A DNA stretch of 64,000 nucleotides from Tetradesmus obliquus (taxonomy: Eukaryota > Chlorophyta > Chlorophyceae > Sphaeropleales > Scenedesmaceae): positions 1,285,001 to 1,349,000 of the forward strand of contig CP126195.1 of NCBI GenBank assembly GCA_030272155.1. The letters are read 5' to 3'. The translations under genes and the position numbers were made by a program. The notes below the pieces were generated by a model. It ran no database searches, was not told the DNA's origin, and saw only the letters and a list, made by a program, of their open reading frames with translations. Positions 148-43,446 of the stretch are shown here, in pieces (positions within the stretch are counted from its first letter, which is position 1; each line of letters begins with the position of its first letter).

Positions 148-161
148 GCGTTTCAACTCAC

Positions 162-662
162 ACAGCAGGTGGTGTTGTTTGGGCCAGCGGTCGTGTTGTA
201 GTTGCTGTTGAACACGGAGTTAGGACCATCGCAGGGGAAGTTGCCGCCAGTGCTTGTGTACACAGCACACGTTTGCACAACGGTGATGACGGTGGTGGCG
301 GGGCCGTTGTTGCCCGTGTTCTGCTCATTATCGGTCGTGACATTGCCGGTGGTGGTCAGCGGGCCTGGTGCAACTGGCTTGACCACGAGAGGAATGTCAA
401 AGCTGCTGTTGGCCGGGATGCTGCCAAGGTTGCAGGTCACTGTCTGGCCGGTGGTGTTTGCGCTGCCAGTGACGGTGCAGTTTGATGGGCCGCTCACGTA
501 CTCCAAGCCAGGAGGCAGCACCTCAACCACCACGGTGTTGGGCGCGGGGCCGCCGCCGGTGTTGTTGACTGTCACGGTGTAGGTGCCGTTGCTGCCGATG
601 GGGATGCTCACTGTGGGGGGCTTCTCAATCGCCACATCAGGGGATCGCGTCAGCTGTTGGGG

Positions 663-703
<41 letters not shown>

Positions 704-3700
704 TTACTTCAGTATCAAACAGCAGATGCAGTGCATTCAGGTGTTTGTATCACATGGTCGCAAATTGTGTTGCGGAGTTATTGATAGGTGCTTGCCACGC
801 TGCACTGACACGCCATGATCTGTCCCGGAACTCACACAGCAGGTGGTGTTGCTTGGATTGCTGTTGGTGGCGCTGCCGTTGTTGAACACTGCGTTGCCAA
901 CGCACTCGAAGGGGCCGCCAGTGCTGGTGAACGCAGCACACGTGCGCACAACAGTGATGGTGTTGGTCGCAGGGCCGTTGTTGGTCGTGTTCTGCTCGCC
1001 AGCCGCTGCGACAGTAGCACTGGTGATGAATGGCCCTGCTGCTGTGGGCCGCACAACAATGCCGAGCGTGGTGTTGCCGCTCGCAGCGATGGTGCCATTG
1101 ATGGTGCAGGTGACCGTGGTGTTGCCGCTTGCCACGCAGCCTGCAGTGAAGCCAGGGCACGGCGCTTGTGGAAGCAGAAAACTGTAAAACCAAACATACT
1201 TGCAAACATCACCATCCAACCAAAACCATATGCAAACTGTTGACACGCTGACTCGTGTTGTCTCGCTTGCTGTACGTTTGGGAGGCAGCAATTTCGGCAG
1301 TGCATGCCATGCAGCAGCTGCACGGCTAGAAACGAAGCTGCTACAAGCTGTTGTCCGTGTCTCTCGTACAGGCTGTGGATGTGGTCTAGTCTGCTTGCTG
1401 TGCCTCACCTGCCGGCCCGCTCACGTACACCAGCCCTGCGGGCAGCGTCTCAGTGACCACCACGCTGCTGGCTGCCGCGCCGCCCACGTTGCTGACGGTG
1501 ATGCTGTAACTGGCGTTGCTGCCGATGGCCACGCTGACGTTGGCAGGGGACTTGGAAACGGTGACGTCTGGGAATAAAGCCGTCTGCAGCAGCAGCAGAT
1601 GACAAGCACCAATAAGAATGGTTGACATTGCAACTTGTACTGCATGATCTGCAAAAGTGCTCCACATAGCGATTTTGATTTGGGCTGCAAAGGTACGTAC
1701 AGAGGTTTATGCAACATACTGGTGCAAAGCATAAGGTGAAGAAGCAGGGTGCGTTGCAACAAGTCAATGATCCCGGAACTCACACAGCAGGTGGTGTTGC
1801 TTGGATTGCTGTTGGTGGCGCTGCCGTTGTTGAACACTGCGTTGCCAACGCACTCGAAGGGGCCGCCAGTGCTGGTGAACGCAGCACACGTGCGCACAAC
1901 AGTGATGGTGTTGGTCGCAGGGCCGTTGTTGGTCGTGTTCTGCTCGCCAGCCGCTGCAACAGTAGCACTGGTGATGAATGGCCCTGCTGCTGTGGGCCGC
2001 ACAACAATGCCGAGCGTGGTGTTGCCGCTCGCAGCGATGGTGCCATTGATGGTGCAGGTGACCGTGGTGTTGCCGCTTGCCACGCAGCCTGCAGTGAAGC
2101 CAGGGCACGGCGCTTGTGGAAGCAGAAAACTGTAAAACCAAACATACTTGCAAACATCACCATCCAACCAAAACCATATGCAAACTGTTGACACGCTGAC
2201 TCGTGTTGTCTCGCTTGCTGTACGTTTGGGAGGCAGCAATTTCGGCAGTGCATGCCATGCAGCAGCTGCACGGCTAGAAACGAAGCTGCTACAAGCTGTT
2301 GTCCGTGTCTCTCGTACAGGCTGTGGATGTGGTCTAGTCTGCTTGCTGTGCCTCACCTGCCGGCCCGCTCACGTACACCAGCCCTGCGGGCAGCGTCTCA
2401 GTGACCACCACGCTGCTGGCTGCCGCGCCGCCCACGTTGCTGACGGTGATGCTGTAACTGGCGTTGCTGCCGATGGCCACGCTGACGTTGGCAGGGGACT
2501 TGGAAACGGTGACGTCTGGGAATAAAGCCGTCTGCAGCAGCAGCAGATGACAAGCACCAATAAGAATGGTTGACATTGCAACTTGTACTGCATGATCTGC
2601 AAAAGTGCTCCACATAGCGATTTTAATTTGGGCTGCAAAGGTACGTACAGAGGTTTATGCAACATACTGGTGCAAAGCATAAGGTGAAGAAGCAGGGTGC
2701 GTTGCAACAAGTCAATGATCCCGGAACTCACACAGCAGGTGGTGTTGCTTGGATTGCTGTTGGTGGCGCTGCCGTTGTTGAACACTGCGTTGCCAACGCA
2801 CTCGAAGGGGCCGCCAGTGCTGGTGAACGCAGCACACGTGCGCACAACAGTGATGGTGTTGGTCGCAGGGCCGTTGTTGGTCGTGTTCTGCTCGCCAGCC
2901 GCTGCGACAGTAGCACTGGTGATGAATGGCCCTGCTGCTGTGGGCCGCACAACAATGCCGAGCGTGGTGTTGCCGCTCGCAGCGATGGTGCCATTGATGG
3001 TGCAGGTGACCGTGGTGTTGCCGCTTGCCACGCAGCCTGCAGTGAAGCCAGGGCACGGCGCTTGTGGAAGCAGAAAACTGTAAAACCAAACATACTTGCA
3101 AACATCACCATCCAACCAAAACCATATGCAAACTGTTGACACGCTGACTCGTGTTGTCTCGCTTGCTGTACGTTTGGGAGGCAGCAATTTCGGCAGTGCA
3201 TGCCATGCAGCAGCTGCACGGCTAGAAACGAAGCTGCTACAAGCTGTTGTCCGTGTCTCTCGTACAGGCTGTGGATGTGGTCTAGTCTGCTTGCTGTGCC
3301 TCACCTGCCGGCCCGCTCACGTACACCAGCCCTGCGGGCAGCGTCTCAGTGACCACCACGCTGCTGGCTGCCGCGCCGCCCACGTTGCTGACGGTGATGC
3401 TGTAACTGGCGTTGCTGCCGATGGCCACGCTGACGTTGGCAGGGGACTTGGAAACGGTGACGTCTGGGAATAAAGCCGTCTGCAGCAGCAGCAGATGACA
3501 AGCACCAATAAGAATGGTTGACATTGCAACTTGTACTGCATGATCTGCAAAAGTGCTCCACATAGCGATTTTGATTTGGGCTGCAAAGGTACGTACAGAG
3601 GTTTATGCAACATACTGGTGCAAAGCATAAGGTGAAGAAGCAGGGTGCGTTGCAACAAGTCAATGATCCCGGAACTCACACAGCAGGTGGTGTTGCTTGG

Positions 3701-6700
3701 ATTGCTGTTGGTGGCGCTGCCGTTGTTGAACACTGCGTTGCCAACGCACTCGAAGGGGCCGCCAGTGCTGGTGAACGCAGCACACGTGCGCACAACAGTG
3801 ATGGTGTTGGTCGCAGGGCCGTTGTTGGTCGTGTTCTGCTCGCCAGCCGCTGCGACAGTAGCACTGGTGATGAATGGCCCTGCTGCTGTGGGCCGCACAA
3901 CAATGCCGAGCGTGGTGTTGCCGCTCGCAGCGATGGTGCCATTGATGGTGCAGGTGACCGTGGTGTTGCCGCTTGCCACGCAGCCTGCAGTGAAGCCAGG
4001 GCACGGCGCTTGTGGAAGCAGAAAACTGTAAAACCAAACATACTTGCAAACATCACCATCCAACCAAAACCATATGCAAACTGTTGACACGCTGACTCGT
4101 GTTGTCTCGCTTGCTGTACGTTTGGGAGGCAGCAATTTCGGCAGTGCATGCCATGCAGCAGCTGCACGGCTAGAAACGAAGCTGCTACAAGCTGTTGTCC
4201 GTGTCTCTCGTACAGGCTGTGGATGTGGTCTAGTCTGCTTGCTGTGCCTCACCTGCCGGCCCGCTCACGTACACCAGCCCTGCGGGCAGCGTCTCAGTGA
4301 CCACCACGCTGCTGGCTGCCGCGCCGCCCACGTTGCTGACGGTGATGCTGTAACTGGCGTTGCTGCCGATGGCCACGCTGACGTTGGCAGGGGACTTGGA
4401 AACGGTGACGTCTGGGAATAAAGCCGTCTGCAGCAGCAGCAGATGACAAGCACCAATAAGAATGGTTGACATTGCAACTTGTACTGCATGATCTGCAAAA
4501 GTGCTCCACATAGCGATTTTGATTTGGGCTGCAAAGGTACGTACAGAGGTTTATGCAACATACTGGTGCAAAGCATAAGGTGAAGAAGCAGGGTGCGTTG
4601 CAACAAGTCAATGATCCCGGAACTCACACAGCAGGTGGTGTTGCTTGGATTGCTGTTGGTGGCGCTGCCGTTGTTGAACACTGCGTTGCCAACGCACTCG
4701 AAGGGGCCGCCAGTGCTGGTGAACGCAGCACACGTGCGCACAACAGTGATGGTGTTGGTCGCAGGGCCGTTGTTGGTCGTGTTCTGCTCGCCAGCCGCTG
4801 CGACAGTAGCACTGGTGATGAATGGCCCTGCTGCTGTGGGCCGCACAACAATGCCGAGCGTGGTGTTGCCGCTCGCAGCGATGGTGCCATTGATGGTGCA
4901 GGTGACCGTGGTGTTGCCGCTTGCCACGCAGCCTGCAGTGAAGCCAGGGCACGGCGCTTGTGGAAGCAGAAAACTGTAAAACCAAACATACTTGCAAACA
5001 TCACCATCCAACCAAAACCATATGCAAACTGTTGACACGCTGACTCGTGTTGTCTCGCTTGCTGTACGTTTGGGAGGCAGCAATTTCGGCAGTGCATGCC
5101 ATGCAGCAGCTGCACGGCTAGAAACGAAGCTGCTACAAGCTGTTGTCCGTGTCTCTCGTACAGGCTGTGGATGTGGTCTAGTCTGCTTGCTGTGCCTCAC
5201 CTGCCGGCCCGCTCACGTACACCAGCCCTGCGGGCAGCGTCTCAGTGACCACCACGCTGCTGGCTGCCGCGCCGCCCACGTTGCTGACGGTGATGCTGTA
5301 ACTGGCGTTGCTGCCGATGGCCACGCTGACGTTGGCAGGGGACTTGGAAACGGTGACGTCTGGGAATAAAGCCGTCTGCAGCAGCAGCAGATGACAAGCA
5401 CCAATAAGAATGGTTGACATTGCAACTTGTACTGCATGATCTGCAAAAGTGCTCCACATAGCGATTTTGATTTGGGCTGCAAAGGTACGTACAGAGGTTT
5501 ATGCAACATACTGGTGCAAAGCATAAGGTGAAGAAGCAGGGTGCGTTGCAACAAGTCAATGATCCCGGAACTCACACAGCAGGTGGTGTTGCTTGGATTG
5601 CTGTTGGTGGCGCTGCCGTTGTTGAACACTGCGTTGCCAACGCACTCGAAGGGGCCGCCAGTGCTGGTGAACGCAGCACACGTGCGCACAACAGTGATGG
5701 TGTTGGTCGTAGGGCCGTTGTTGGTCGTGTTCTGCTCGCCAGCCGCTGCGACAGTAGCACTGGTGATGAATGGCCCTGCTGCTGTGGGCCGCACAACAAT
5801 GCCGAGCGTGGTGTTGCCGCTCGCAGCGATGGTGCCATTGATGGTGCAGGTGACCGTGGTGTTGCCGCTTGCCACGCAGCCTGCAGTGAAGCCAGGGCAC
5901 GGCGCTTGTGGAAGCAGAAAACTGTAAAACCAAACATACTTGCAAACATCACCATCCAACCAAAACCATATGCAAACTGTTGACACGCTGACTCGTGTTG
6001 TCTCGCTTGCTGTACGTTTGGGAGGCAGCAATTTCGGCAGTGCATGCCATGCAGCAGCTGCACGGCTAGAAACGAAGCTGCAACAAGCTGTTGTCCGTGT
6101 CTCTCGTACAGGCTGTGGATGTGGTCTAGTCTGCTTGCTGTGCCTCACCTGCCGGCCCGCTCACGTACACCAGCCCTGCGGGCAGCGTCTCAGTGACCAC
6201 CACGCTGCTGGCTGCCGCGCCGCCCACGTTGCTGACGGTGATACTATAGCTGGCGTTGCTGCCGATGGCCACGCTGACGTTGGCAGGGGACTTGGAGACG
6301 ATGACATCGGGGGCTGCACATGACAACAGGGACAGCAGCAGATGAACGTGAGGTGTCATGTCATCCTTGCTCATAGCAGTGTCATGCGCAAACGTGCTGG
6401 GTGTGTTGACCATTAGTGTGTAATTGATGCCGTTGAAACAGCTTGCAGGATACCCTTCGTGAAGTTACTGTGCTGGCTTGCAAGAGAGCCCTGCAGAGTA
6501 CCGTTACGCTCCTCTGCTGCTTTTCTCATTGCTCGGCTGCTTAAAACAGCTCAACATGCATGCCCGTTGTAGCTCATCTTAGCATGAGTGCTGCCAGAGC
6601 ATGGCCACTGCTTGCAGGAAAGAGCGAGCCAGCTGCAGGAGTGGTTGCTGCTGAGAAAGAGCCTCACTCAGGGGCTCAGCATGCATGCATATGCATGGCT

Positions 6701-9610
6701 TCTTGGCTGCTATGCTCTTGGCTCAGCTGCTCAACAGCCATGCATCGTTACAGCGTATTCTGACAGGAGGGCTGCTAGAGGATGGCCACTGCTTGCAGGA
6801 AAGAGCGAGCCAACTGCAAGCCTGCTTGCTGCTGAAAAAGTGCCTCACTTACGAATTCTGCAAGCACAGCTCACAGCCTCACCTGTTACTCTTGTGGTGC
6901 AGAAGGCCTGGTTGTTTGTGGCATCATTGTCGGCAGGCGGCTTCACAACAACTGTAGTTGTCCAGTTGCCGAGTGCAAGCGCCCTGGTGGTGATGGTGTA
7001 GACCAGCGTGGCATTGCTTCTGAGCGGCGTGGTGGTAGACGTTGTTACCGTGCACACATACACGGTGTTTGCACCGCTGGTGACACCCGATCCACAGGTG
7101 ACTGCAAACAGCGGCACCAGCAAGCACAGGGGAATCTTTAGTGTGTGACAGCTGCCCTCAGGCTACAGGATTTAGAGGTCAAGGGTTGAGGGTTTAGGCC
7201 TACATCCTGCTCCTCAGCCATGTTATCTTTAACAGTCTACGGGGCCTGATTGAGCTTCCGCCTCCCGCTGTTGTGCATGTCTCTATTGCTTCTTGGATGC
7301 GCGCCACACATAGTCTGCAACACCACCAAGTTTGTCCTGCAAGCAACAGTGCAGCTTTGTTTTGTGCAAACAAGCGGTTACATCTATGCCTGTGTGCTTG
7401 CCCGGTTGCCAGATGCTCACTTGGAGGCGCGCCTGCTGTTGCTGTCACGCCCACTAGTGACAGCCCGGCAGTTGGCAGTGTGATGTTCATAGGGATGGCA
7501 CCGGTCACATCGTATGGGCTCGGGTTGTCGAGCGTCAACTGCACTGTTCCGTTGCCACCCACAGCGACGCCATTGGCGCTGCAGCCGACCCCCACATCCA
7601 CGTCAGTGCAGGCAGCTTTCACAATTGTGTCGATAATTGCCCCAAGCGCGCTGAAGGAACTGGCAGTAAAATTGTAGTCACTAATTTTGTCGAGCCAGTC
7701 CGACCTGATGCCGCTTCCAACGCCGATGGACACGAGAGTGATTTGATCCTGCCTGATCTTAGCAGCTGCAACATAATCACGGAAGCAGCAAGGCAGACAG
7801 TTAGATAGTCATCAGTGGCAGTACAGACATGCAGTGAAGGCTGCTGCAGCAGGCAACTAAAATGCTTAATGTCCTTTTCACACATCTTGTACTTGCTGGC
7901 GTGGAGCACTTAGGTGTTGCAGCAGGCATTTGCCCGCCGGCTGATGTCTTTGTACATGTGGGGTGCAGTGCCTTTTCTTGCACCTTGGTGGGAGAATAGC
8001 CACATGAGCATGCCGCTCTTTCCCGCAACAGCAGCAACACCTGGCAACGACGATGATTGAGGCTCACCTCTACCCTCCGCAGCAACATCAGCACACGTGC
8101 AAGTGCTGGCCCCGCACCAGCAGGCGGTGTCGGGAATTGCAGAGCTGTTAGTGCATGATTGACAGTTTGTGCCAGGTACAATGGGGTTCGTGGCCCTGCA
8201 CGCAGAGAAGCAGGACACCAGCATTGCTCAGTCTCTGATGCATCTCAAGCACCAGGCTGATTGCATGATGCACACCAATGCATTGGAGTTGATAGCTGCT
8301 GGTGGTGCACCGCAAGCGATCACAGCTGTGGTGTGTGCAGCAGTACTGCAGGTGACCACCTAAAAGGCTGTGTTCCAGGTGGCAAGCCGCCGCTCAACAA
8401 GCGCTATTGCCAGCTACACGCAGTTAGCAAAAGCAGCACCGTTTGCAGACATTTGGACGAGAAAACAGCCAAGTAAACTGCAATACAACGCATACAGCAT
8501 GATCGCCTGGGCTTGATGCTTACTTGTCGTATACGTTGGCGTTTCCGTCAGTCAGCAGCATCACCATGCGAGGAAGCGTACTGTCGATGTTGCGTGTGAG
8601 AATGCCTGATGTAGAACTTGCGTAGCTGCAATGATACAAGTGTCAGATGACAGCAGCAGCAGCAGCAGCAGCAACGGCAGCAGCAGCAGCAGCCACAGGG
8701 CAAATCAGCAGCCTGTCAGCAGCAGGAACACCCTATGTCACAGCAGCAGCAAACCCACCACATCTGCGCCGTTGACTGCGATTGCTGCAAACTGCACTGA
8801 ACATGCGCATCCGTGGTGTACAGCACCCGGAGCAGTGCACACATCTTCAGTGACGGTTGCAAGCAGCGCGCGCATGCAAAGGATGCTGGCACCATGCTCG
8901 TTGCAAGTGCGGACAGCGCTCTGGCTTGTGCCGCTGTTCAGAAGGGCTCAACCAGAAAGGAATCAGTCACTGCATGCCTGCACATGATGCGGCACCTGTC
9001 ACTGACGCCGCTGCTGCTGCTGCTGCTGCTCAGAACCATCACGGAGCTCACCAAGTTGCTAGCCCAGCGTCTGTATTGGTGCCTCCCGTCGACTGGTTGT
9101 TGGCGTTGATGGCAGCTAAGGCAGCTGCTGTGTTGTTGGTCATGCTGGCCAACCCCGCCACAGCCGTAGCGCTGCTGGCAAACTCCGCGGCGCCATACTG
9201 GGATTTGGCTGCAGATGATGTGCCGGGCAAATAGATTGAATTGGCACAGTTGCCTTGGCGTTGCCTCGTGTTTTGTGTACACGAGCATGTGCAGCTGGAC
9301 ATCAGGCCACATATAAGCAGCCTGAGGCTGGATGGCACACTCTATACCTGTCAGATACGGGCTAGCCACGCAGCACAGGACACATACAGATCCGTCCAGC
9401 ACAGGCAACCTACGCAGCAGCTCATTCAATGGCTGATATGCTGCAATGTGCCCACAACACTCTGCGACCTTGTCTGCTGAATATGCTGTGCGTCCGTTAT
9501 GTTGAAAAGCCGCTCACTTGATAAATTTGCTATTTTGTTGATGACGTCACGCGTGAAGTTCAAGGCCCTGGTGAAGTCAGCCGCCGCAATAGAGCCGCTC
9601 TCTGCACAGC

Positions 9611-9641
<31 letters not shown>

Positions 9642-9990
9642 TGATGTTGGCTGGCACCATAGCAACTGAAGGAGAGCTGCAACTGACAACGTTGACTGCC
9701 TTTGAGGTCAACAGACGCTGCTGCACTGGAGCTCTGCCTGCAGATCACAGCCGCAGCAGCCCGAAGCTGCACGCAGCCTAGTGCAGCCAGTAGTGTTTGA
9801 TGCGCCATAGCTGCATGCAGAGTAGCAGGTAAGCCAGCAAACGTCCTGAGAGCCTCTCACCATCAATGACAAAGCACACGGCAATGCCGCATGTACCGCG
9901 CTGTGCCTGCACTGCTGGTGCATTCATGTACAGGCAGGCGGCAGCCACCAGCACGAGCAGCAGCTGCCGCAAGCCGCTGGCTGCTGCCAT
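162..9990 (-). CDS. Secreted VWA-DUF11 repeat protein (partial, continues past left edge)
   Basis: Twenty exons were modelled, all with compatible phases: 9990-9861, 9601-9518, 9208-9052, 8625-8524, 8195-8068, 7765-7421, 7101-6883, 6313-6149, 5904-5576, 5375-5201, 4956-4628, 4427-4253, 4008-3680, 3479-3305, 3060-2732, 2531-2357, 2112-1784, 1583-1409, 1164-836 and 653-162. They encode at least 1557 residues. The N-terminus is a signal peptide (hydrophobic LLLVLVAAACLY, then AVQAQ). A von Willebrand A domain follows with a complete MIDAS: DESGS formed across the exon 1/2 junction, GGTNTDAGL, and LLTDGN. After it come eight DUF11-type (PF01345) beta domains. Each array repeat carries about eight N-glycosylation sequons and paired cysteines. 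I infer an extracellular matrix, cell-wall or adhesion protein. The start is the first ATG before the signal peptide. The VWA core between exons 2 and 3 is shorter than usual, so a small exon may be missing from the model. The gene is clear; the exact splicing is less so. Confidence 0.82.
823..6242 (-). repeat. 948-bp tandem array of DUF11 exon pairs (about 5.7 copies)
   Basis: The same 948-bp unit recurs with its exon A donor at 1409, 2357, 3305, 4253, 5201 and 6149. Each unit holds exon A (175 bp), an intron of 244 bp, exon B (329 bp) and an intron of 200 bp. Exons A plus B make 504 bp, or 168 codons, entering and leaving in phase 0, so units can be gained or lost without a frameshift. I saw only a few single-base differences between complete units, for example near 1955, 2624, 5711 and 6082. 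Near-identity ends at about 823 on the left and 6242 on the right. The introns are as conserved as the exons, which points to recent amplification or gene conversion. Confidence 0.95.
6590..6852. repeat. Tandem duplication in intron 7 of the VWA-DUF11 gene
   Basis: A block of about 80 bp at 6590-6670, which includes ATGGCCACTGCTTGCAGGAA, recurs at about 6771-6852, offset about 181 bp. The copies are clearly related but not identical. No coding function is seen. Confidence 0.7.
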
Positions 9991-12078
9991 GGTGCTGCAC
10001 TAGCCGCCTGTTGACGGCGTCACCGGCAGCTGCTGCTGCCGCTGCTGTTTGTCAGCTTAGGGTAAGGGGCTACTGCTGACAGCAGTTGAAAGGGCAGGTG
10101 GCAGCGGCAGCAGCAGCAAGAGCTATGTGCGGGATGTATGTGATGTGCGCCGTGACAGCCGTTCATGCACCGCACAACAGGGTAAAATGGTGCCAGCACT
10201 TGCAAATAAGGCACGTGGCAGCGTTCACCCAGCAACTTTGATGTTGACTACAGCGTGCCTTGCTGCAGAGCTGCTGCTGCCTGGCAGGTGGTTGACCATA
10301 AGGCAGAAAAGTTGTTGAACGCGTTGTGCTGGATGCAACAGCTGTGCATGTCATGTAAGTGGCCGATCGTTCGATTCGTGCAATACATACGTAACATGCA
10401 CGGTGCTCCTGCTGGTATCGGCTGCTCCAGCAGTTCTGCTGGCAGGCAAGCAGAGGCAGCTGCATGGTCCTCACCAATGGCCGCAACCTGATGCTGTCAA
10501 GCTCCAGCCAAGCGCACACTACTCGTTGAAAGGTGGAAGATTTGGGTATTGCAACTTGCGATAGCTATTCGTCGGCTGCTGCAGGGCCCGCAGACCTCCA
10601 AGAGGAAGCGAGGCCGTTTGCGGGAAAGAACAAGTTGCCTGCTCCCAACCTCTCCGTATCAAGTGTGTGATCTATGTTTCAGATCCTTGAACAAGCCACG
10701 CGAGGACAGACGCACGTGTGTGAACCAGAGCAAGATGTTCCTTGTGACGGGCTGATGTCACAGTTCTATTGAGGGTGCTGACCAAACAGTTCCAAAGAAC
10801 TTACATCCAACAATCTTTGCACGCCCGTACAGCGTGGAGTGAGGGAAGCTGGGGAACGGCGACCGCAAAGGGTCGTACCCGAAATGACATCCGAACATCT
10901 CACGTTTGTGCATTAACGTCGCCTGTCTGGCACTTAACCTTTAAAAACACTGCTTGTTAAACGGCGTTAAACTGCTATATTCATGACACACGCTGAAGAA
11001 GTTCAATTTTACTTTACGAGGTAGAAGCGTGGTGCATAGCCACCTAAGAGCCGTGATATGCTTAACGTTTGAGTCAGAAACACTGTTCAGTATGGTAAAA
11101 GTGGATGACAGAAGCAAGAAGTGCCCCAAACCTGAACGTCAGCAATACCAGAGAAACCCGCACAAAGCCCGTTCGGAATGTCCTAAAAATTCAAAAGGTA
11201 CAGTTCAACGTTTTTCATATGCACGAATACGTCTAGTATAACCTGCATTGAAAAGTTCGGACTCGCAGCACATTGAAGTGCCAGCACCAGCTGCATCAGC
11301 GCTGCGCTCACCGGCTAGCTCCCGTGCAAGCGATTTTGAAATCAATTCTACATAGCACGATTTTGGTGAGCTCAAACCCTGTTCACGCACGGCCAGCATG
11401 CCATGATCGCAAGGCACACCATCACCACATGGTGCATGCATGGGTTACTCGACCTCCGAAGCTGCTCGCATGATTGCGCACTTAAAAGCTGGTATAACCT
11501 AGAGGGCTAAACGCTACGTAACACTGCGTTTGCTACTGCCATTGCTGCAAGAAGTGCGGTACAAGGCTTGCGCCACACTTGACAAGGCACATCCCGGCCA
11601 TGCACGCTCTGTGCTGCCGCTTCATCGCTGCACATAATACGCTTAAATTACAGTACTTGCTGACTTGCTCCCCAACAGTGCACTGCAGGCTTGTCCATGG
11701 CTACTGTCATGTCACCTGGCACCATCACACAGCAGGCATGACTGATCTGCATGTGCACCATGCACTCATCAGCAACCATCTGCATGCGGGCTACCAGTTA
11801 CTGTACAGATACGTGCAGGTACACGGTACTGAGACAGCATCACACATTGCTGTGTGCCCCAAACGGGCCTTCTGCAACGGCCAGCTGCAGGGGAACTTGC
11901 CATGCACCCACAGCACGCATGCGCATCATCAATACAAGCGCAAGCCCGTAAGAAGAACATGTGCAAGCCCTAGATGGCAGCTGCAGCTTGTGCTGCTCAC
12001 AGCAACTGGCACACAAGGCATGCTGAGTCACGGAGTCCAAGCAAAACTGCTTCTTGGCAGCTTCCAGGTAATTGGCGC
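9991..12078. other. Intergenic: promoter side of the VWA-DUF11 gene and 3' region of the FAD oxidoreductase
   Basis: No convincing gene was found. About 10540-11250 is noticeably AT-richer than its surroundings and holds only short open frames, for example a 49-residue plus-strand frame starting near 11092 that is rich in Lys and Arg. About 11560-12078 is CA-rich on plus, so TG-rich on minus, which resembles the 3' untranslated sequence seen after other genes here and may belong to the minus-strand oxidoreductase. Confidence 0.4.
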
Positions 12079-12980
12079 CTGACAGCAGGGGGCTCTTCAG
12101 GCCCAAGCTGTCCAGCACGCCGCGCACTGCTTGGTTGGCCTGCTTGGCTGCTGCTGTGTGCGGCTCATCAGCCTCAACGTCCAGCACCACTGCCATGCTG
12201 CCCTGCCCGCAGTGTATGTTTTGCGCGCATGCTGCCTGCTGCAGCAGCTGCAAACTTGTGCCTCTCACTGCAGCAGGCAGAGCCAGCTTGCAGCAGCCAT
12301 GCATGCTGGAAGCTCTCGAATGCATGCTGTTGCTGCTCACAGCAGGGGGCTCTTCAGGCCCAAGCTGTCCAGCACGCTGCGCACTGCCTTGTTGGCCTGC
12401 TTGGCTGCTGCTATGTGCGGCTCATCCCGCTCCAAATCCAGCACCACTGCCTTGCTGCCCTGCCGGACTTGTTTGTGTTGCAAGCCCATGCTGCCTGCTG
12501 CCTGCTGCAGCAGCTGCAAAACTGCGCCTCTCACCGCAACAGGCAAAGCCAGCTTCGCAGCAGCCATGCATCCTGGCAGATTCCGGTTCAGCTGTTGCCT
12601 CACAGCAGGGGGCTCTTGAGGCCCAAACTGTCCAGCACGCCGCGCACTGCTTGGTTGGCCTGCTTGGCTGCTGCAATGTGCGGCTCGTCAGGATCTACGT
12701 CAAGCACCACCGCCTTGCTGCCATGTCCTCCGCAAGCACTGCTGCAAGCGCTGCTGCAGCAGCTGCACAGCTGTGGTGTTGAAAGCAGCGGGACAGCCAG
12801 CAGCCATGCATCCTGGCAGCTCCCCGTCGCCTGCCGCTTCACAGCAGAGGGCTCCTGAGCCCCAAACTGTCCAGCACGCCGCGCACTGCTTGGTTGGCCT
12901 GCTTGGCTGCTGCTATGTGCGGCTCATCCGGCTCTACATCCAGCACCACCGCCTTGCTGCCCTGCCCGCAGTGGTCCACA
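12079..12980 (-). repeat. Four tandem copies of the C-terminal exon of the FAD oxidoreductase
   Basis: The segment encoding DEPHIAAAKQANQAVRG and LDSLGLKSPLL occurs four times on the minus strand, ending near 12839, 12600, 12337 and 12079 (spacing 239, 263 and 258 bp). The first three copies end CTG CTG TGA. The fourth, most downstream, reads through to SGANYLEAAKKQF, which resembles the conserved end of the desaturase family, so it may be the ancestral terminus. Copies differ at a few residues (DVEPDEP, DVDPDEP, DLERDEP, DVEADEP). Confidence 0.85.
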
Positions 12981-13043
12981 ACAAGGTTGGCTGCAGTGAG
13001 GCCGGTCACGTACGCGCGCTCCTGGCTGAGGCCATTAGCACCT

Positions 13044-13099
<56 letters not shown>

Positions 13100-13187
13100 G
13101 ATCATGAATGTGCAGTGGTCAACCACAAGGTTGGCTGCTGTGAGGCCGGTCACGTACGCGCGCTCCTGGCTGAGGCCGTTGGCGCCT

Positions 13188-13228
<41 letters not shown>

Positions 13229-14896
13229 GATCATGAATGTGCAGTGGTCAACCACAAGGTTGGCTGCGGTGAGGCCGGTCACGTACGCGCGCTCCTGGCT
13301 GAGGCCATTGGCGCCTGCAGCAGCAGCGGTGAAAACGACCATCGTTTCCATGATGGGGAAGCGGCAGCCACAGCCTGGAGAACGCCGTTATTCCGGGTGC
13401 AGCACCTTGGTCTGAAACAGCTGTTGCTGTTCAAATGCATACTGCGCACAGCCCAGGTACTGCCTGCCCGAGCGCTGACTGCGTTTAAGCAGCTTCAAGC
13501 ATGCTGCTGCTGCTCCTGCTGCTGCTGCTAACGCTACTGCTGCTTGTGCAGCATATGCTGTAATGTAGGCTCCCAAGCGCCTTGAACAAGCTGGCTGCCG
13601 CTGTTCCTGCTGCTGCTGCTACTAGTGAGCATCATCGAACCCCATCAACCAGGGTGCCGCAGGTGCAGACGGCATAGTAGTACGCTGTGCCACATGGCTC
13701 ACCGTGGCTCACTCCCTTCACCCAGTCCCCAGCCAGGAAGCAGTTAGGGATGCTGGTCGCCTGGAACGGCCTGCACAGCAGGCAAGACCAAGAACAGGCA
13801 GGCACCATAGACACAGAAACGCTGTGAGCAGCAGTCGGATGAGCACGTCAGGCACAGCGAGCTGCCCACGCGAAGGCGCAACACGCACCATCAGCAGCAG
13901 CACCAGCAAAGCACCAGCATAGCCGTAGTGATGTGTCCAAGGCAGGGCTTGCAGGAATGATGAAGGATGAGCGATATGCTTTGCTGCGCGGTATGCGCTG
14001 CTGTGCACTCACCGTGATGCGTAGGAGCCCGGGCTGAAGTGTGTGACCGCCTTGGGGAAGCGCAGCACTGCACTGTCCACCACCTGGGCGCCCTTGAAGT
14101 CCGGCTCACACACCTGCAGCCGGCAATATGAAACAAAGTCATGCTCAAGCCTTGATGTGAAGCATAGCAGTGTGCAGCACCGTGCTGTCCACCACCTGGG
14201 CGCCTGACTGACAGCGCCCTTGAAGCCCGGCTCACACACCTGCAGCACGCAACATGAAACACACACTCTTGTCAGTTGTCAGCGTCGTTTGAAATGAGGA
14301 CTTGTAGTGAGGCACAGCAGTGAGCAACACCGCACTGTCCACCACTGTTGCACCCTTGAAGCCCGGCTCACACACCTGCAGCCAGCCAGCAACACAAGGC
14401 AAAGCTGTTTGACTGCAATCATGATCAGTGCTGTCCAGCACTTGGGCGCAATCAAAGCCCGGCTGCCGCACCTGCAGCCGGCAGCAGGGCAAATAAAGTA
14501 CATTGAGGACGTATGGTGCATCACAGCATTGTGCAGCACTGCGCTGTCTTGATTACTCATGCATTCTTGAAGCCCAGCTCACACAAACCCACACGGCCAC
14601 CACCATGACGCTAGTGGTGAGCAAGTGACAGTCATGATTGCTGCACTGCTCCACAAGCCAGGATCACAAGCACCTCAAGGATGCTTCGCTGAAGCCGCCT
14701 GGGATACGGCGCTGGCGCCGACATTGTTGGGAACAACATCAACGCTGCAACCACGGTCAACAGCGCCTAACCTCTAAGTGTGACTTCACGCGCGCCACAA
14801 CCTCCTCGTCAGTCAGCGGCAGCAGCTCGTTGGCACCGTAGAAGTCGGCCGTGATTACGGAGCCCGGCGCGTCCTTGTACTCGTCCTGCACAGGCA

Positions 14897-18239: not shown

Positions 18240-19820
18240 CGTTGAAGCAAGATCTCAACACAGCATGAAGGGCATGATCAGCTAAAGCCATCAGGTGCAG
18301 CTCGGGTCTAGATGCTGCAGACTGCATGGAGACGAACACCACAAGAGTCAATGTGACAACAGCGCAGCCCCGGCAACAAATGCGTGAGCACACCCCGGCA
18401 ATGCTTTACATTGCCCACACAGCACACATGCGCGCATCAACAGATGCAGCGGCTGCCAGCTGCACACACACATCACAAAAAGCGCAGCCACACCTGCAGC
18501 GGCAGCGACCAGTGCAGCGGCGCGGTGTGCACAAACTGACCCAGCAGGGTGGGCAGCCTTGGCAGCTTGCTGAAGACCGGGGCCTCTGTGGTGAGGCCCT
18601 TGGGGCTCCAGAAGCCAGAGGTGGTCCAGTCAGTGAGGGGCCAGGCACCTCCCAGGTCCTGTTGCAGGATATTTGCAAGTGGCAGAAAGAGACGGCAGCA
18701 AAGCCAATCATGAGCGTGGTGTGAGAGGAAAGAGCAGAAGAGAGGCCCTTTGGGTTCCCAAGGCCTGAGGTGGTCCAGTCTGTGAGCGGCCAGGCGCCCC
18801 CAGGTCCTGTTGGAGCAGGAGGGAAGGGTGTTGCAGGACGTTAACGAGCAGCATTGTAGCCGGAGACAGACTAACAACAGGAGAGAGGGAGAAACAGCAC
18901 ACGAGAGGGCCCCTATGGTCATTGAGGGGGCAGCTGCAGCAACAAGAAGATAGCACGAGGTAGACTGGTCAATAACGGGGCAGCTGCATCCTAGGTCCAG
19001 TGACAAAGGGCTCAAGTGAACATGCGCCTGCGCTACTGTGCTCAGCCACCCACCTTGAGCAGCGCAAAGATGTTACTGTAGCTGTACCAGAAGCCCTTCA
19101 TGCCTGCAGCATGCAGCACCACAGCAGCAGAAGCAGAAGCAGTTTGACAGTTACGACGGCTCACAGCAGCACAACCACCTCTCTGCTAGCTGGCAGGACA
19201 AAGCTGTACAGCAGGGGACAGCAACCAAGAAAGCTTGGTTTTAGAGCTTGCTGCTTCCAATGTCAGCGGTGTCTGCCAGACCAGGCTGCAGAGCTATGCT
19301 GCGCCTACACTTTGCCAACAACTAGCAGCAAGAGCCGCATAATTTGGCATCTGCTGTTGCCTGGTTTGACTGCTGGCCCCTCACCCGCCTCAACCACCTT
19401 GCCGCTGCTGGTCCTGAACCCTCCAGACAAACCGCCAGGGTTTTTAGCAGCCTCGATCAGGGTCACTGCGTAGCCCTGCTCTGAGAGGTGTTTGGCAGCT
19501 CCAAACCCTGCCCAGCCACCACCAACCACCACCACTTTCTTGCGAGTGTCGACAGGCCCACTGCTGCTGCTGCTGCTGGCATTGCTGCTGCTGCTGGTGG
19601 TTGCAGAGCTGTCTAGTGGCTGGAAGTCACTGCTTGCTGCTGCTGCTGCTGCTGCTGCTAGCACACTCCTGCTGTGTGGGCTACTTGCTGCCTGGCGGAG
19701 GTTCTGCCTGCTGATGCGCAGAGGTATCCTCTGCTGTTGTTGCTGCTGGCTAGCTCTGCTGCAGTGCCTGAGGCGCAACAGGAACACAACATGCACATGG
19801 CCAACATGTCGCCAGGTCAT
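12839..19820 (-). CDS. FAD-dependent amine oxidase, zeta-carotene/phytoene desaturase-like
   Basis: Thirteen exons, all phases compatible: 19820-19385, 19103-19054, 18658-18494, 18186-18116, 17851-17777, 17432-17353, 16639-16536, 16130-15930, 15412-15272, 14885-14772, 14113-14013, 13770-13703, and a last exon to 12839. The last exon can begin at 13314, 13185 or 13041, giving 693, 650 or 602 residues; 602 fits the family best. A Ser/Ala/Arg-rich N-terminus of about 90 residues looks like a plastid transit peptide. The Rossmann FAD site follows (VVVVGGGWAGFGAAKHL, with the ribose-binding Glu in TLIEA, then GGLSGGF). Later family signatures are GMKGFWYSYSNIFALLK, DFDVCWPRGSIAETIFTP and, near the end, FLAGDWVKGVSHG followed by GLSQERAYVTGLTAANLVV. 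Members of this family oxidise carotenoids or related substrates using FAD; the substrate here is unknown. The introns hold many partial exon copies, described separately. Confidence 0.85.
13041..13340 (-). repeat. Triplicated exon start with CTG-run acceptors (exon 13)
   Basis: The stretch GLSQERAYVTGLTAANLVVD is encoded three times, beginning at 13314, 13185 and 13041 on minus. The second and third copies are each preceded by an uninterrupted CTG run in the sense strand (13189-13227 and 13045-13098), the first by a short run. All end CTGCAG directly before the copy. The copies share one reading frame, and read through, the runs would encode polyalanine. Confidence 0.9.
14180..14600 (-). repeat. 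Four degenerate copies of the exon 11 start
   Basis: The acceptor and first codons of exon 11 (VCEPDFKGAQVVDSAVL) recur upstream in the intron near 14180-14240, 14330-14390, 14430-14490 and 14540-14590. The copies become more degraded with distance from the functional exon at 14113-14013. None has a matching donor, so they look like non-functional shadow exons. Confidence 0.75.
15009..15105 (-). repeat. Partial copy of the exon 9 end with donor
   Basis: This repeats the last ~95 bp of exon 9 (RYPANVLSGFETTAGATFF) including the CTGCAG|GTGAG donor, and lies downstream of the real exon (15412-15272) in the transcript. One difference changes NDLQ to NVLQ. Confidence 0.85.
15577..15701. repeat. 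25-bp minisatellite, five copies
   Basis: The unit AGCAGCTCACTGCTGCTAGG plus GATCA is repeated five times with one or two changes, in the intron between exons 9 and 8 of the FAD oxidoreductase. Confidence 0.9.
16676..17095 (-). repeat. Four shadow copies of the exon 7 start
   Basis: The acceptor and first part of exon 7 (HQNDFDVCWPRGSIAETIFT) recur near 16700-16750, 16795-16865, 16900-16985 and 17025-17095, upstream of the real exon at 16639-16536. The middle two keep an open frame up to AETIFT and then run into intron-like sequence without the PMVERIQ part or a donor. Spacing is roughly 110-120 bp. Confidence 0.85.
17645..17700 (-). repeat. Partial copy of the exon 5 end with donor
   Basis: About 50 bp covering the end of exon 5 (ERCYQEFLR) and its donor region are repeated downstream of the functional exon (17851-17777), with several substitutions. 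Confidence 0.75.
18189..18239 (-). repeat. CTG run at the exon 4 acceptor
   Basis: In the sense strand a nearly pure CTG run ends in TTGCTGCTGCAG, the 3' splice site of exon 4 (exon starts 18186). It seems to stand in for the polypyrimidine tract. Confidence 0.85.
18735..18975 (-). repeat. Two shadow copies of the exon 3 start
   Basis: The beginning of exon 3 (DLGGAWPLTDWTTSGFW and PKG) with its upstream CAACAG acceptor region is repeated at about 18735-18830. A more decayed copy lies at about 18895-18975. Both are upstream of the real exon (18658-18494) in the transcript. Confidence 0.7.

Positions 19821-43392: not shown

Positions 43393-43446
<54 letters not shown>

Follow-up and report, generated by a model that had tools for sequence, protein, structure and literature searches.

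Uniform tandem exon-intron units in a predicted vWA-DUF11 gene of the green alga Tetradesmus obliquus and similar arrays elsewhere in its genome

A minus-strand gene of the green alga Tetradesmus obliquus carries a tandem array of almost identical exon-intron units. It lies in the window analysed here, i.e. 64,000 nucleotides of contig CP126195.1 (assembly GCA_030272155.1, positions 1,285,001 to 1,349,000; the contig is termed C5 below). We consider it likely that this gene codes for a protein with a von Willebrand factor A (vWA) domain and DUF11 domains, that the exon pair of one DUF11 domain was recently amplified and that misaligned recombination keeps the copies uniform. Similar arrays were found at three other places of the genome.

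The array extends over positions 823..6242 of the window. Comparison of each base with the base 948 positions on gave 6 mismatches in 4472 comparisons, i.e. 5.72 units with a period of 948 bp, whereas the neighbouring periods 940-947 and 949-956 (n = 16) yielded just 21-34% identity. The mismatches reduce to four private variants at 1958, 2625, 5710 and 6082; two are in exon B and one each in intron 1 and intron 2. A unit is composed of exon A (175 nt), an intron of 244 nt, exon B (329 nt) and a second intron of 200 nt. Its coding part of 504 nt corresponds to 168 codons with outer junctions in phase 0-0 and the inner intron in phase 1. One identical 168-residue peptide with 7 cysteines and 8 N-glycosylation sequons is encoded by all five full units. 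These are located at 4628..5375 (exon A 5375-5201, exon B 4956-4628), 3680..4427, 2732..3479, 1784..2531 (with the silent private variant at 1958) and 836..1583. Silent positions of the full units are identical as well, bar one site in exon B. The array thus has the form of a coding variable-number tandem repeat in which exon and intron together make up phase-symmetric tandem units in a single reading frame.

An earlier interpretation of these letters (the sequence-only reading) had described near-identical 948-bp units inside one coding gene, with exons and introns equally conserved and only a few single-base differences, and had proposed to compute the pairwise divergence of exons and introns between units. 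The calculation bears this out. Mean pairwise divergence was 0.0020 for exon B and 0.0014 for intron 1 (6 copies each) and 0.0020 for intron 2 (5 copies), i.e. the introns are as uniform as the exons. Exon A diverged by 0.0155, wholly due to the copy nearest the 5' end of the gene (5576..6313; exon A 6313-6149, exon B 5904-5576). There, exon A has 165 instead of 175 nt, is entered in phase 1 and has 8 variable columns within its first ~80 columns. The protein sequence of this copy has a shorter start and two amino-acid differences, the one in exon A being T to I. The claim that the exon pair comprises exactly 168 codons in phase 0-0 therefore holds for the five full units and fails for this copy, which does not qualify as an interchangeable unit of 168 codons. 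The five internal units carry 2 private variants in total, equivalent to about 8e-4 mean pairwise differences. At a mutation rate near 1e-9 per site per generation, this would correspond very roughly to an age of some hundred thousand generations, a figure which homogenisation would make too young.

The array is contained in a 20-exon gene model which runs on the minus strand from an ATG at 9990 down to 153 and specifies 1559 residues. All 19 junctions are GT..AG, phases are compatible and internal stops are absent; the donor of exon 5 is ambiguous, with two candidate sites six bases apart and in the same phase. The order of domains is a signal-peptide-like start, vWA, a DUF11-like exon, six DUF11 exon pairs and a diverged single-exon DUF11. 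Exon 1 (9861..9990) contains the ATG, the hydrophobic, signal-peptide-like N-terminus as judged by eye and the start of the vWA domain, which continues with its adjoining region in exons 2-6 (7421..9601). Exon 7 (6883..7101) is a diverged DUF11-like domain with a weak match (E=0.017). The terminal exon (153..653; DUF11 E=3.4e-14) has an in-frame TGA right after a donor-like TGT/GTGAGT; either it stops at 153 or it splices on beyond the window.

The spliced first 553 residues matched the vWA profile PF00092 with E=1.8e-18 (67.8 bits, cut-off 23.8) and DUF11 with E=3.8e-17; the spliced unit matched DUF11 by PF01345 (57.2 bits, cut-off 24.6) and TIGR01451 (40.6 bits, cut-off 24). Unspliced stretches gave vWA at E=0.24 at best, and the gene is absent from the 2 matches of a six-frame vWA search of the genome. 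Because the vWA domain emerges only upon splicing, the gene model is supported. The metal-binding motif of the metal ion-dependent adhesion site is defined as DxSxS; by eye, DESGS is present at the exon 1-2 junction. The best sequence match in the PDB is the vWA matrix protein PTMP1 (4cn8, E=1.1e-11, best stretch residues 198-255). This mussel proximal thread matrix protein 1 is, like the predicted algal protein, a vWA protein, and is part of an extracellular material; the match is confined to the vWA part and any transfer of function is a suggestion only. The N-terminus and the vWA match suggest that the protein is secreted or located at the surface. To this extent the surface protein considered possible in the sequence-only reading remains plausible.

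The assembly comprises 104,662,953 bases in 17 contigs. A DUF11 profile search of it gave at least 40 matches, and DUF11 matches were also present in 4 of 14 control genomes. The further arrays, on contigs C10, C17 and C13, were detected by a DNA search, by the DUF11 search and by a scan of neighbouring stretches, respectively; neither they nor the vWA-DUF11 gene family had been noticed in the sequence-only reading. The C17 array has a period of 891 bp (exon A 175, intron 145, exon B 311, intron 260) and four exon pairs, and its first exon A has 165 nt like that of the C5 array. The C10 array (C10:5054246-5058635) repeats 685 bp, an unsplit exon of 447 nt plus an intron of 238 nt (one intron has 241 nt), with six full exons. 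The seventh exon follows the array without a difference over 257 nt, after which its sequence departs, still inside the exon; this is a breakpoint within coding sequence. The C13 array (C13:246659-250000) has a period of 1099 bp (one spacing is 1094) and exons of 144 and 147 nt, both in phase 0. It has at least three copies, as the match reaches the end of the examined stretch. A different, Cys-rich domain is repeated here, and a DUF11 match lies ~3 kb away on the same strand. In all four arrays the coding part of a full unit is divisible by 3. A repeat scan (period 150-3500, at least 95% identity over 200 bp) gave no array in window positions 6501-64000. At other loci, 2 of 11 had matches (L048 and L044); all 11 are at or near DUF11 matches and are not a random sample. 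A pattern search of the viral collection gave 29 matching stretches, none of which encodes a relative.

The C10 and C17 genes carry the vWA-tail exon of the C5 gene (53% and 46% identity, respectively) and are therefore paralogues in a vWA-DUF11 family. In a protein tree of the units with 24 rows, C5 units were grouped with 100/99 and C17 units with 100/99; C5 with C17 had 94/96, which is below the starred level. One row, C10_u6, ran past the exon end (1233 nt with internal stops), and its placement beside C10_o6 was disregarded as an artefact; for C10, exon counts are based on six exons. Clustering of units by locus indicated that the arrays were amplified independently. Moreover, different domains were probably used. 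A phase-1 intron at a matching place divides the units of C5 and C17; those of C10 are unsplit, while the first DUF11 of the C10 gene (around 5064408 and 5063776) also reads as two pieces. As read from the frames, amplification in C5 and C17 probably started from the first DUF11, which is split, and in C10 from a later one without a split. In the sequence compared, the introns of the three DUF11 arrays have no mutual similarity, and the flanking introns of the C5 gene have none to the C5 array introns (blastn, E<=1e-3). A single 34-base, 82% match of C5 intron 1 was seen elsewhere in the window, at 19226.

The edges of the arrays and the order of units bear on the way in which they arose. In C17, array identity covers exon A from its first base on, and in C5 it sets in 71 bases into the exon; both arrays end 12-13 nt past the donor of exon B, and the flanking introns are unrelated to the array introns. 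This indicated that the limits of the repeated module lie in or near coding sequence. Among the seven units of C10, the four leading ones alternate in an ABAB order at 10 of the 19 variable exon sites, as an exchange of two-unit blocks would leave behind; those after them do not. Thus, the recent amplification or gene conversion proposed in the sequence-only reading agrees with a C5 array recently made uniform and with signs of unequal exchange or conversion in a paralogous array.

We propose that one DUF11 domain, an exon pair with a phase-1 intron inside and a phase-0 intron in between, was amplified together with both introns to six copies. Homology among older DUF11 exons probably gave rise to the initial duplications. 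Misaligned recombination between the copies, by unequal crossing-over and/or gene conversion, would then keep exons and introns uniform. With both ends of the unit in phase 0, each unit gained or lost alters the protein by one domain of 168 residues and leaves the frame intact. The predicted secreted protein would probably serve in the cell wall or the extracellular matrix as a rod, stabilised by disulfides and glycans and headed by a vWA binding domain; its domains and glycosylation sites point to such a function. The number of units would then set the length of the rod.

Several observations weigh against this proposal. Units u4 and u5 of C10 depart from the ABAB order. A single-sequence AlphaFold prediction of the terminal DUF11 exon gave strands only, at a mean pLDDT of 41.3, and did not confirm the DUF11 fold. 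A run of 7,500 N (C5:1277501-1285000) adjoins base 1 of the window and hides whether the gene continues. Further, crossing-over and conversion are not separated by the data, and in this one assembly the copy number could be mis-assembled. The last point can be extended to the view that the array is an assembly artefact in which near-identical copies were multiplied or collapsed, such that the true number of units is lower or higher. In favour of this view, the five internal units differ by just 2 private variants. Yet each of the four variants sits in particular copies, the two edges of the array run into different flanks and three further arrays have other periods, one of them with ordered unit types. 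Moreover, 17 contigs for 104.66 Mb suggest a long-read assembly. An artefact could alter the number of units, hardly the existence of the array, and we hold it to be very unlikely. Even less probable is an old array kept uniform by selection on exons and introns alike, without recent amplification or exchange. Introns are indeed as conserved as exons, and introns of constrained sequence are conceivable; but in the blastn comparison the array introns of C5 resemble neither the flanking introns nor those of C17 and C10, so that no common intron sequence is required, and silent positions of the full units agree save for one site in exon B.

A more serious alternative is that uniformity is mainly due to non-reciprocal gene conversion at a stable copy number and not to unequal crossing-over. 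The C10 array provides the arguments. Of its 19 variable exon sites 16 are third codon positions, i.e. 16/149 vary compared with 5/238 in the intron (Fisher p=3.8e-4), as if exons import tracts from other DUF11 exons. This fits exons which exchange with other DUF11 exons and introns which exchange only within the array. In addition, five private differences of u4 are packed in exon sites 206-242. On the other hand, all exon sites taken together (19/447) do not differ significantly from the intron (p=0.19), which speaks against exchange with foreign exons, and C17 has no such contrast (intron 1 0.0149, exon B 0.0070, intron 2 0). A donor exon could not be named; the older exon o3 shares the variant allele at only part of the sites. 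Finally, an exchange that changes copy number is required for the ABAB order, for the differing numbers of units in the paralogues and for tandem growth as such. Therefore, conversion as the main route is possible, yet doubtful, and misaligned recombination including unequal crossing-over is preferred.

The form of the array is already known from LPA KIV-2 and from the exon arrays of Tetrahymena leucine-rich repeat (LRR) genes; by this shared anatomy the C5 array belongs to a known form. In LPA, KIV-2 has exons of ~160 and 182 bp in a 5.6 kb unit, present in 1 to ~40 units, and array-length variation explains 30-70% of the variance of human plasma levels (PMC11462820). In both systems an extracellular domain on two short exons is repeated within one gene together with intra- and inter-domain introns. 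The algal unit is smaller (0.948 versus 5.6 kb), encodes DUF11 instead of a kringle and occurs in a green alga. Unlike KIV-2 as described there, the alga has separate arrays in several paralogous genes; length polymorphism is a feature of LPA and may occur in the alga. The Tetrahymena source reports LRR genes with 90-bp exons and phase 2 introns, 1500 of them in T. thermophila (566 + 934), and a linked retrotransposon; its authors attribute the repeat units to unequal crossing over (PMC6564038). Common to both are a protist gene family, intragenic exon/intron repeat units and a uniform exon length and phase. The algal units are not of this LRR type, as they encode DUF11 on exons of 175 + 329 nt with outer phase 0 and inner phase 1. 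Units have 149-168 codons with phase 0 outer junctions and occur in three vWA-DUF11 genes. A literature search on DUF11 tandem repeats in green algae gave no report of such arrays, and one on von Willebrand factor in Scenedesmus or green-algal cell walls gave nothing related; on exon-intron repeats the Tetrahymena paper was the closest among the matches listed. As far as the literature was searched, the lineage, the DUF11 domain and the occurrence of parallel arrays in paralogous genes of a single alga are new.

Some additional features were seen. At their 3' ends, array intron 2 and the introns of the C10 array have CTG runs that close with CAG, i.e. the microsatellite itself supplies the splice acceptor; two acceptors of the C10 array are CTGTAG in place of CTGCAG. 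Many (CAG/CTG)n tracts are scattered over the window, e.g. at 89-147, 664-700, 8651-8693, 13044-13098 and 43394-43442. The intron upstream of the array contains a tandem duplication of its own (6508-6849, ~161 bp, 77% identity). Just past the 7,500 N a further DUF11 match is located at C5:1276302, so that this gene or one next to it may extend into that region. Window positions 12048-13327 have tandem repeats of 257 bp (3.6 copies, 79% matches) and 129 bp (2.1 copies, 98%) that contain (GCA)n and fall in long open frames of the minus strand; they may be further duplications within genes. Locus L048 (about C1:9946280-9947370) has irregular repeats with periods of 276, 465, 645 and 741, ~2 kb before a DUF11 match at C1:9949309 in an open frame of 1490 amino acids; possibly this is an intronless repeat relative. 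Other profile matches in the genome were light-harvesting PF00504 (n = 52), which points to a photosynthetic eukaryote, and pherophorin-type PF12499 (n = 1, above cut-off).

Such arrays upset short-read assembly and gene annotation, hence draft genomes may give wrong gene lengths for this family. One may speculate about a family-wide system in which the modules of vWA-DUF11 surface rods flare repeatedly and independently into arrays, with introns as extra homology for recombination. Strains would then differ in rod length at several loci, and copy number would tune adhesion at the surface or in the colony; we regard this as unlikely. This small genome has four arrays of one form and with different periods, and paralogous vWA-DUF11 genes contain three of these. 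The arrays are natural replicates in which one may ask how exon-intron modules are amplified and stay uniform, and whether the number of domains in a surface protein varies.

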